The translations under genes were made by a program, and so were the position numbers. Below the pieces are notes generated by a model. The model had not been told where the DNA came from. It was given only the letters and a program-made list of their open reading frames with translations, and did no database searches. 64,000 nucleotides of DNA, from contig NZ_BEWO01000004.1 of the NCBI RefSeq assembly GCF_002723975.1, positions 62,001-126,000 on the forward strand, written 5' to 3'. Shown here piece after piece: positions 32,373 to 37,929 of this stretch (its first letter is position 1; the number at the start of each line of letters is the position of its first letter). The stretch comes from Gluconobacter japonicus. GTDB lineage: Bacteria > Pseudomonadota > Alphaproteobacteria > Acetobacterales > Acetobacteraceae.

Positions 32373-32828
32373 TCAGGCAGCAAGCCGAGCCTTCACCAGA
32401 CCACTGGCCTTGGCCGGATCAAGATCAGCACCGAAGCGCTCTTTCAGAACCGCCATGACCTTGCCCATATCCTTCATGCCCGCGGCACCAACAGCCGTCA
32501 CAGCCTCATCAATCGCAGCCTTCAGAGTATTCTCATCCAGTTCAGGCGGCAGATAGGACTGGATCGTGGCGATCTCGCCCTCTTCCTTTTCCGCAAGTTC
32601 AGGGCGGCCCCCCTGACGGTACATGTTGGCAGACTCCGTGCGAGACTTGATCATGGAGCGCAGGGCCGAAATCATGTCTGCTTCCGTCACCTCCCCACTC
32701 TTGGCACGAGCCGCAACTTCGAGGTCCTTGAGCTTGGCCGTGATACCACGGATCTGCGCCACCTTTTCAGACTGACCTGCCTTCATTGCAGCCTTGAGAT
32801 CGTCCATGATCTGTGCGCGAAGTGACAT
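32373..32828 (-). CDS. yqeY: GatB/YqeY domain protein
   Basis: 151-residue YqeY protein (LRAQIMDDLKAAMKAGQSEK, then RKSG-like region and the C-terminal DMGKVMAVLKERFG). The family is related to the tRNA-interacting tail of GatB and is often adjacent to dnaG or carA; its exact role is unsettled. It is divergent from carA, sharing a 219-bp intergenic region with the paired palindromes. In many alphaproteobacteria yqeY sits beside dnaG; here 7.5 kb lie between them. Confidence 0.92.
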   Translation of the reverse strand: MSLRAQIMDDLKAAMKAGQSEKVAQIRGITAKLKDLEVAARAKSGEVTEADMISALRSMIKSRTESANMYRQGGRPELAEKEEGEIATIQSYLPPELDENTLKAAIDEAVTAVGAAGMKDMGKVMAVLKERFGADLDPAKASGLVKARLAA

Positions 32829-32928: not shown

Positions 32929-32987
32929 GGGAAGTTTTTTCCCACCCTTTTTTGGTCCACCGAGAATCACATGGGAAAAAACTTCCC
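32929..32987. promoter_or_regulatory. Paired palindromes / 16-bp inverted repeat upstream of carA
   Basis: Two 15-bp elements of the form GGGAA-N5-TTCCC occupy 32929-32943 and 32973-32987, 44 bp apart centre to centre (about four helical turns). Read together, 32929-32944 is the exact reverse complement of 32972-32987. They lie about 60 bp upstream of the carA ATG and 100 bp upstream of yqeY. They could be paired operators for a dimeric regulator or an RNA hairpin in the carA leader; no U-tract follows, so a simple terminator is unlikely. Confidence 0.75.
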
Positions 32988-33047
32988 ATCCGCTTCCTAA
33001 TCGCTTATCAGACCTGAAAGTGAACACGGAGCCAGGAACGGGCGACC

Positions 33048-34409
33048 ATGGACATCGACAGAATCATCGAAAAAGCCGGAGGCGCGGACGAGATCGCTGC
33101 TCTTGCCGGCGTCGGCCTCGAAGCCGTCCGCAAGTGGCGTCAGTCGCGAACCGTGCCGACCAAGCACTGGCCCGCCCTGCTACGCGTTCCCGGAATCGAA
33201 CTCCAGGACCTGACTTCCGCTGAAACCCCGCAAGAAAGAGAGACGGACGTGTCCAATTCCTGCCCTGCCGGCGCCAATGCCGCCCTTGTCCTTGCAGATG
33301 GCACGGTCCTGTGGGGCCGAGGCTTCGGCGCCCACACCGATGGCGCCGTCGGTGAACTCTGCTTCTCCACCGGCATGACCGGCTATCAGGAAACCCTGAC
33401 GGACCCGTCTTTCGCCGGGCAGATCGTGACCTTCACCTTCCCGCATATCGGCAATGTCGGCACGAACACGGACGACAATGAAGCGCCGAAGATGGCCGCT
33501 CTTGGCGCCGTCGTGAAGGAAGACGTCACCGCTCCGGCAAGCTGGCGTTCCATGGAATCCCTCGATGGCTGGCTGAAGCAGCATGGCCGCGCAGGTATCA
33601 GCGGAGTAGACACCCGCGCAGTAACCCGCTCCCTGCGTGACAATGGCCCGCAAACTGCCATCCTTGCCTTTCCAGCAAACGGCCGGATCGACACGGACAG
33701 CCTGCTGAACCGCGCCCGCCAGTGGCCTGGGCTCGAAGGCATGGATCTCGCCAAAGAGGTCACGCAGCCGAAGCGCGTCTGGACGGAAGGCGTGTGGGAA
33801 AGCACCCGCCCGGCCCGTACCGAGAACCGCCGCCGCGTGGTCGCCATGGACTACGGCGCCAAAGACAACATCCTGCGCTGCCTCGTGACCGCTGGTTGTG
33901 ACGTCACGGTTCTGCCCGCGACCGCTACGGCTGAGGAAATTCTGGAACTGAAACCCGAAGGTGTGTTCCTGTCCAACGGCCCGGGCGACCCGGCAGCGAC
34001 CGGCACCTATGCCGTCCCGGCCATCAAGAGCGTTCTGGACGCCAACGTGCCAGTTTTCGGCATCTGCCTTGGCCATCAGCTTCTCGCACAGGCTCTTGGT
34101 GGGAAGACCTACAAGCTGGATCGTGGCCATCGCGGCGCCAACCAGCCGGTCAAAGACATCGAAAGTGGCCGAGTGGAAATCACCAGCCAGAACCATGGCT
34201 TCGCCGTGGATGAGAAGTCCCTGCCTGCTGATGTGAAGGTGACGCATGTGAGCCTGTTTGACGGCTCCAACGAAGGCATTGCTTCCACCACAAAGGACGC
34301 CTTCTCCGTTCAGTACCATCCCGAGGCCAGCCCTGGCCCGTCTGACAGTTTCTATCTTTTCGAGCGTTTCGTCGCGGTCATGGACCGTCGCGCCAAAGCA
34401 GGAGCCTGA
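33048..34409 (+). CDS. carA: Carbamoyl-phosphate synthase small subunit with N-terminal HTH domain
   Basis: 453 residues from ATG 33048. Residues about 1-58 look like a YdaS/Cro-type helix-turn-helix (IIEKAGGADEIAALAGVG followed by EAVRKWRQSRTVP). A short linker leads to a normal CarA: ALVLADGTVLWGRGF, the GELCFSTGMTGYQETLTDPS N-domain, and a class-I glutaminase with FGICLGHQLLAQALGG (nucleophile Cys340), and a late HPEASPGP. CarA supplies ammonia from glutamine to CarB for arginine and pyrimidine synthesis. An in-frame GTG at 33249 would give a 386-residue CarA like E. coli's (382), with a purine-rich but weak ribosome-binding site. No stop separates the two parts, so either a fusion or two products are made. 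carB follows by 3 nt. Confidence 0.9.
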   Translation: MDIDRIIEKAGGADEIAALAGVGLEAVRKWRQSRTVPTKHWPALLRVPGIELQDLTSAETPQERETDVSNSCPAGANAALVLADGTVLWGRGFGAHTDGAVGELCFSTGMTGYQETLTDPSFAGQIVTFTFPHIGNVGTNTDDNEAPKMAALGAVVKEDVTAPASWRSMESLDGWLKQHGRAGISGVDTRAVTRSLRDNGPQTAILAFPANGRIDTDSLLNRARQWPGLEGMDLAKEVTQPKRVWTEGVWESTRPARTENRRRVVAMDYGAKDNILRCLVTAGCDVTVLPATATAEEILELKPEGVFLSNGPGDPAATGTYAVPAIKSVLDANVPVFGICLGHQLLAQALGGKTYKLDRGHRGANQPVKDIESGRVEITSQNHGFAVDEKSLPADVKVTHVSLFDGSNEGIASTTKDAFSVQYHPEASPGPSDSFYLFERFVAVMDRRAKAGA

Positions 34410-34412
34410 GCC

Positions 34413-37667
<3,255 letters not shown>

Positions 37668-37722: not shown

Positions 37723-37929
37723 TTACTCGCCCGAATACCGAAGAATATCGCCCGGCTGGCAGTCAAGCACGCGACACAGAGCCTCCAGAGTGGAAAACCT
37801 GATCGCCTTTGCCTTGCCAGTCTTGAGAATGGAAAGGTTGGCAAGCGTCAGACCCACCTTCTCCGACAACTCCGTCAAAGACATGCCCCGCTCTTTCAGA
37901 AGCTCATCCAGACTGATCCGGACAGGCAT
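37723..37929 (-). CDS. Small XRE-family transcriptional regulator
   Basis: 68-residue protein consisting of a single Cro/CI-type helix-turn-helix (LLKERGMSLTELSEKVGLTL, then ANLSILKTGKAKAIRFSTLE and the C-terminal CRVLDCQPGDIL), typical of YozG-like regulators. It is monocistronic, with the bidirectional carB terminator at its 3' end. Target genes cannot be read from sequence. The AT-rich region upstream to greA may carry its own operator. Confidence 0.85.
   Translation of the reverse strand: MPVRISLDELLKERGMSLTELSEKVGLTLANLSILKTGKAKAIRFSTLEALCRVLDCQPGDILRYSGE

Follow-up and report, generated by a model that had tools for sequence, protein, structure and literature searches.

Carbamoyl phosphate supplies arginine and pyrimidine synthesis alike. 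In Escherichia coli the control of its synthesis needs many separate factors, and carAB is governed partly by the trigger enzymes PepA and PyrH (PMC6245113). In trifunctional PutA a metabolic enzyme represses its own genes through an N-terminal DNA-binding domain (PMC5293562). Here we describe a carA gene of Gluconobacter japonicus, contained in a 64,000-nucleotide (nt) stretch of contig NZ_BEWO01000004.1 (positions 62,001 to 126,000; hereafter the window), whose product carries a helix-turn-helix (HTH) domain in front of the enzyme. From comparative genomics we consider it likely that this protein, HTH-CarA, would act as a built-in, operon-specific autorepressor of carAB.

A Cro-type domain in frame with CarA

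The first-pass annotation of the window had noticed 67 extra codons ahead of GTG 33249, and these indeed run from ATG 33048 in the frame of CarA without an intervening stop, giving a frame of 453 amino acids. The long product matches TIGR01368 with 446 bits (cut-off 307), which identifies it as CarA, and no second CarA of the genome exceeds the cut-off; each of five relatives that were checked likewise has a single one. The product of the G. cerinus locus is 99% identical to CarA of the window. Residues C340, H424 and E426 (long-product numbering), which we take to be the Cys-His-Glu amidotransferase triad of CarA, are unchanged across the 16 sequences aligned.

Residues 3-56 match the NCBIfam model NF046037 'carph-isopro' with 64.3 bits (E 8e-18, cut-off 38), and the same region reaches 27.1 bits against Pfam YdaS_toxin (PF15943), just under the gathering score of 30; the earlier call of a YdaS/Cro-type HTH was right in kind. 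As the HTH was poorly resolved in the full-length AlphaFold model (blocks of 49-60), it was predicted by itself, which gave a confident helical domain with a mean predicted local distance difference test score (pLDDT) of 93 and helices at 3-10, 13-20, 24-33 and 38-44. The nearest solved structures are the Cro proteins of Xfaso 1, N15 and P22; the Z-score of this match is low and may reflect a common helical arrangement only, so the assignment rests on the sequence match. In sequence and in predicted helical fold the domain is of Cro type. Among phage records the best matches are repressor-like genes of Caulobacter phages (40% identity, E 2e-4). Seven residues (G11, A26, K29, W30, P37, H40 and G49) are constant in 83 HTH sequences.

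Against three nearer congeners the nonsynonymous and synonymous substitution rates (dN/dS) of the HTH are 0.016/0.488, 0.033/0.538 and 0.033/1.058, i.e., ratios of about 0.03-0.06, and its dN of 0.016-0.033 is smaller than the 0.052-0.067 of a 120-codon stretch within CarA, at a dS of 0.49-1.06. Against distant relatives (L102, L004, L002, L005, L021) the HTH dN of 0.34-0.45 exceeds the CarA dN of 0.24-0.31, and the ratio is about 0.2-0.5 with dS close to saturation. By these measures the HTH codons are true coding sequence under purifying selection; the lack of such selection, which the first-pass annotation had named, together with sole production from GTG 33249, as grounds for abandoning its reading, was not found.

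NF046037 also matches the N-termini of proteins from other Alphaproteobacteria (L097, L099, L101 and L105, the last of them cut off) that are presumably relatives of mitofilin/Mic60; their recognition helices differ.

The fusion is a family trait

We take the family as Acetobacteraceae in a wide, GTDB-like sense, which by named loci includes NCBI's Acetobacteraceae, Roseomonadaceae and Acidocellaceae. L019 (labelled 'Acidobacteria') is counted with it on a CarA tree stretch identical to that of L304, and L008 (labelled 'Alphaproteobacteria') on the HTH start that it shares with L164. In the comparison across the family that the first-pass annotation had suggested, a profile built from 17 CarA N-termini found the HTH domain in 151 of the 160 family genomes and 97 of the 102 genera, with a single match per genome. 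Five genomes scored above 80 bits in a draw of 385 from the class, all within the family (next best 43 bits), as did three, again all within the family, in a draw of 299 from the phylum; no fusion was seen outside the wide family in these two draws.

Seven of the nine family genomes without a match have no whole carA in the assembly, the gene being not over the cut-off in G697, G717, G749 and G784 and only partial in G704, G743 and G818. That leaves G707 and G790, two complete genomes from a single genus, whose CarA is plain and lacks the HTH. In a CarA tree of 51 rows (L301 and L302 not included) they cluster with an HTH-bearing genome (support 100/98) on a long branch, a nesting which suggests that the HTH was probably lost in their lineage. 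The CarA of L020, a metagenome-assembled genome called Rhodospirillaceae, also falls inside the family on a long branch, with neither an HTH match nor an operator-like site (see below), possibly a second joint loss.

Palindromes upstream of carA accompany the domain

Two palindromes of the form GGGAA-N5-TTCCC, the putative distal and proximal operators of Table 1, lie between the divergent genes, upstream of the interval treated in the first-pass annotation. They are the only such sequences in the window, where 0.07 were expected, and two occurred in 1 of 100 shuffles. We surveyed 109 of the 151 domain-bearing genomes (L215 was omitted as the same genome as L141). In 104 of them a perfect GGAA-N5-TTCC core stands no more than 200 nt ahead of the fused start; the other 5 have a core with one mismatch. 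Among the same 109 regions the reversed pattern matched perfectly in a single one, and dinucleotide shuffles averaged 0.76 regions, with at most 3. Sites are present upstream of L159 and L273 as well. Two perfect cores occur in 63 of the 109 regions and, when one-mismatch sites are counted, 72 of 98 distances between sites are 37-40 nt.

Where carA is unfused, the perfect core is absent upstream: between 250 nt upstream and 30 nt past the start, it was found in none of 80 loci (57 from the locus comparison and 23 further ones). Upstream of the plain carA of G707 and G790, which are among the 23, the full pattern does not occur even when two mismatches are allowed.

The outer base pair of the site covaries with residue 32 of the recognition helix, which in most sequences reads (T/L)EA(V/I)RKWRQ. 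In the 100 genomes with Gln32 the outer pair of perfect-core sites is G..C in 127 of 159 sites, C..G in 2 and other in 30; where residue 32 is Ser, Ala, His or Thr (nine genomes), 6 of 8 such sites have C..G, 2 have C..C and none has G..C (Fisher p 3e-8, the sites not being independent). On the CarA tree, replacement of Gln together with a C..G site occurs in at least three places (L295, L296 and the Acidocella group), some of them with moderate support (L295 with L008, 94/85; L296 with L307, 97/89), and L299/L300 perhaps represent a further separate replacement. Of the indirect signs that these sites are read by the HTH of CarA itself, we regard this covariation as the strongest.

Placement of the sites relative to predicted promoters

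The position of the proximal site defines two promoter classes, comprising 62 and 35 genomes, with 12 of the 109 fitting neither. In class 1 the site begins 28-30 nt upstream of the ATG, the columns 7 to 5 nt before it are T, T and G (98, 92 and 94%), and an A stands at offset 17 (92%); the TTG and the -10 A are both exactly placed in 50 of the 62. The resulting layout, TTGnnn-N17-nAnnnn, has the operator filling the predicted -35/-10 spacer, and since the ATG follows only 6-8 nt past the -10, the mRNA should be leaderless. The window shares the layout of class 2, in which the site is set further upstream, its right half running into TTCCCA as the predicted -35; in 20 of the 35 genomes the TA of a -10 follows after a 17-nt spacer. 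For the window, carA transcription is expected to start near 33018; the main text of the primary-transcriptome study of G. oxydans 621H (PMC5756330) does not name carA. A protein bound at such sites should exclude RNA polymerase, the geometry of a repressor.

An internal start and two probable products

Residues 56-69 have a pLDDT under 50 in the full-length model, and the linker between HTH and CarA differs in length and sequence across relatives. Among 63 distinct linkers (L003 and L166 were dropped, their linker end not being recognised), an ATG occurs in 47, any start codon in 57 and a Shine-Dalgarno (SD)-like stretch before a start in 42. Linker ATGs have a median anti-SD pairing energy of -5.8 kcal/mol (n=52) against -2.5 kcal/mol for ATGs in the CarA body (n=233), with a p value of 3e-13 that is too good for related sequences; the median is -1.7 kcal/mol for linker codons generally (n=1543), and GTG 33249 itself pairs at -5.2 kcal/mol. 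Methionine makes up 3.4% of linker residues and 1.0% of those in the CarA body. The start codons and SD-like sequences suggest that the ancestral CarA start has been kept within the fusion, and in most species one gene probably yields HTH-CarA as well as plain CarA, two products that would be about 7 kDa apart in size. In G061, where the linker (L124) has no start codon and a single CarA exceeds the cut-off, the fusion must be the enzyme.

Other sites, other fusions and the neighbourhood of carA

The exact GGGAA-N5-TTCCC pattern occurs at 9 places in the Gluconobacter genome, against 2 for the reversed control. Six of the seven places away from carA are inside long open reading frames and one is intergenic, between genes that we read as purB and purC; this palindrome could serve as a terminator, or else as a second target. 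Four relatives have the exact pattern at 18 places, six of them at carA. Among the remaining twelve, three (G735) were given no locus, L200, L202, L204, L205 and L210 are in gene-like reading frames, L206, L212 and L213 are in doubtful ones, and one is intergenic (Table 1). A larger regulon is thus unsupported by the exact-pattern search of these five genomes; mismatched sites were not searched genome-wide.

In one genome of another family, G051, the same kind of HTH is fused N-terminally to GlmU (NF010933, 623 bits). Upstream of its gene stand GGAATTTAATTCC, with a perfect GGAA-N5-TTCC core, and a copy with one mismatch, and these just precede a promoter-like TTGCCA-N17-TATCGT-N7-ATG, read by eye. 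In this genome carA itself lacks both the fusion and a site of this kind. A carph-isopro HTH joined to a crotonyl-CoA carboxylase/reductase in G166 was considered as a further case and set aside, as no convincing palindrome was found near its start.

Table 1. Features of the carA locus (window positions) and related loci elsewhere
Feature	Position	Strand	Remarks
Divergent gene, GatB/YqeY-like	32373..32828	-	Shares with carA the intergenic region that holds the operators
Putative distal operator, GGGAAGTTTTTTCCC	32929..32943	.	Exact reverse complement of the proximal operator; kept in relatives
Putative proximal operator, GGGAAAAAACTTCCC	32973..32987	.	GGGAA-N5-TTCCC palindrome; kept in relatives
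Predicted -35, TTCCCA	32983..32988	+	Overlaps right half of proximal operator
Predicted -10, TATCAG	33006..33011	+	17 nt past TTCCCA
HTH-CarA, long product	33048..34409	+	453 amino acids, from ATG 33048
Cro-type HTH domain	33048..33221	+	Residues 1-58 of long product; from profiles, conservation and predicted structure
Recognition helix	33117..33146	+	Residues 24-33, with R28, K29 and Q32; from predicted secondary structure and Q32 covariation
Flexible linker	33222..33248	+	Holds SD-like stretch AAAGAGAG before GTG 33249
Plain CarA (CarA body)	33249..34409	+	Internal start GTG 33249
carB, presumed from its protein	34413..37667	+	Begins three bases past carA end
Small regulator gene, presumably Xre-type	37723-37929	-	68 amino acids; between carB and greA
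Intergenic palindrome within GCGGGAATAGTTTTCCCGC	G000:C5:142465-142479 (L089:1501-1515)		Between two genes
Intergenic palindrome in G-rich, repeat-like stretch	L214:1501-1515 (G033:C4:132759-132773)		Away from carA
HTH-GlmU	L129 (G051:C77:21670-)	-	Sites at -77 and -48 of ATG
Carph-isopro HTH fused to crotonyl-CoA carboxylase/reductase	L136:1489-3072 (G166)		Internal Met before enzyme part

Proposed mechanism and alternatives

The domain, the palindromes and their promoter-like placement, the joint absence of domain and site, the covariation and the internal starts with SD-like sequence are read from the genomes themselves; from these we infer binding, repression and the use of both starts. 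In the proposed mechanism, the HTHs of HTH-CarA, held as a pair by CarA or CarAB contacts, would bind one or two of the GGGAA-N5-TTCCC palindromes, and the protein bound on or in the core promoter would block RNA polymerase when CarA is plentiful, giving negative autoregulation. In most species the internal start would let the amounts of repressor-enzyme and plain enzyme differ. As for the signal, glutamine, UMP, ornithine or assembly with CarB might modulate binding; on a simpler view, repression would be exerted by excess HTH-CarA not bound to CarB. A switch by enzyme assembly would be possible, but its sign does not follow: E. coli carbamoyl-phosphate synthetase is essentially a heterodimer with UMP and a tetramer with ornithine (PMC6245113), effects which offer no obvious sign for such a switch. 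We are evenly divided on a wider picture of nested starts, in which HTH-CarA, leaderless in many species, would act on the operator of its own promoter and plain CarA would come from an SD-led start, so that the family would control carbamoyl-phosphate synthesis without a separate regulator, and in which HTH and operator would form a portable module also found on GlmU.

Several observations, besides the uncertain sign of an assembly switch, weigh against autorepression by HTH-CarA. All family-wide counts come from related genomes, which are not independent. A generic sigma-70 scan listed no promoter in the carA upstream region, and 15 of the 35 class 2 genomes have no TA at the expected -10. 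The covariation has exceptions: two Thr32 genomes have C..C or imperfect sites, two genomes that keep Gln have RQAG with a C..G pair, and 30 Gln32 sites have an outer pair that is neither G..C nor C..G. A core with one mismatch was found in 7 of the 57 unfused loci of the locus comparison (0 of 23 in the second set), and four unfused loci (L071, L074, L075 and L079) have a perfect core just within the coding sequence, which we take to be a coding coincidence. At least two intergenic palindromes, in the Gluconobacter genome and in G033, lie away from carA, and 6 of the 63 linkers (L008, L019, L094, L124, L127 and L168) have no start codon.

A further such point is that enzyme-fused HTHs need not bind DNA, as the presence of HppE and MPnS, HTH-bearing metalloenzymes, among the structural matches of the domain recalls. 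It lends some weight to a different account, in which the palindromes are occupied by a separate transcription factor and CarA carries its HTH just as a structural or protein-contact appendage, and the small Xre-type gene just past carB might seem to provide the factor. That gene turned up in just two of the 16 family genomes tested, which both belong to the window's genus, and therefore cannot be the general binder. The idea of any separate factor is likewise difficult to reconcile with the joint presence and absence of operator and HTH, with the covariation between the outer base of the operator and residue 32 of CarA's recognition helix, and with the same operator core at the gene for HTH-GlmU; we judge it unlikely. 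We also think it unlikely, to a similar degree, that HTH-CarA on its operator is an activator, or activator and repressor both: the class 2 arrangement, with a proximal operator on the -35 and a distal site upstream, is one that some activators have too, but across the 62 class 1 genomes the operator occupies the predicted -35/-10 spacer, a position from which a bound dimer should keep RNA polymerase off.

The palindromes could instead be RNA hairpins of an attenuator or leader, since the 16-mers at 32929-32944 and 32972-32987 are exact reverse complements that could pair as a stem-loop, and the distal copy with its T-run scored terminator-like (1 found, 0.5 expected). We consider this improbable: in class 1 both copies are upstream of the predicted start site and would go untranscribed, and the half-site sequence is conserved beyond what pairing demands and covaries with a DNA-recognition residue. 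Least credible, indeed very improbable, is that plain CarA from GTG 33249 is the sole product and the upstream codons go untranslated. Internal starts with SD-like sequence are common, as this would have it, but the HTH codons are under purifying selection, and in G061 the enzyme could not be made in this way. The first-pass annotation had offered regulation of the own operon, as in PutA, and a pair of products, fusion and plain CarA, as alternatives. The promoter palindrome, joint absence and covariation strongly support the former, and linker starts with SD-like pairing favour the latter; the two are not rivals, and both products probably exist.

Comparison with known systems

The domain had already been named by NCBI curators, without a DNA target or function, as NF046037 carph-isopro, so the fusion itself is not unknown. 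Our literature search turned up no paper using that name and, judging by titles and abstract openings, nothing on this fusion or its operator. The free-standing phage repressors Cro of Xfaso 1, N15 and P22 differ in that the domain described here forms part of a housekeeping enzyme, at whose gene the palindromes stand. In E. coli, carAB is regulated by other enzymes along with several DNA-binding factors (PMC6245113), whereas here CarA itself bears the DNA-binding domain.

A whole bacterial family thus appears to have placed a repressor inside an enzyme. If this is true, HTH-CarA would be a clean case of an anabolic enzyme serving as its own operon-specific repressor, and would illustrate a general way for a Cro domain of phage type to become the regulator of a housekeeping enzyme. 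The likeness to PutA extends to the fusion of a DNA-binding domain to an enzyme and to a conserved operator-like site at the enzyme's own gene. HTH-CarA has HTH and CarA domains only and does not belong to the PutA family proper; PutA has a ribbon-helix-helix domain next to proline/P5C dehydrogenase domains and acts in proline catabolism, whereas here a Cro-type HTH is joined to an anabolic subunit that probably has a second product without the domain. We would therefore place HTH-CarA with enzyme autoregulators such as PutA, the new elements being the operator and its family-wide conservation at the promoter, together with the covariation and dual start.
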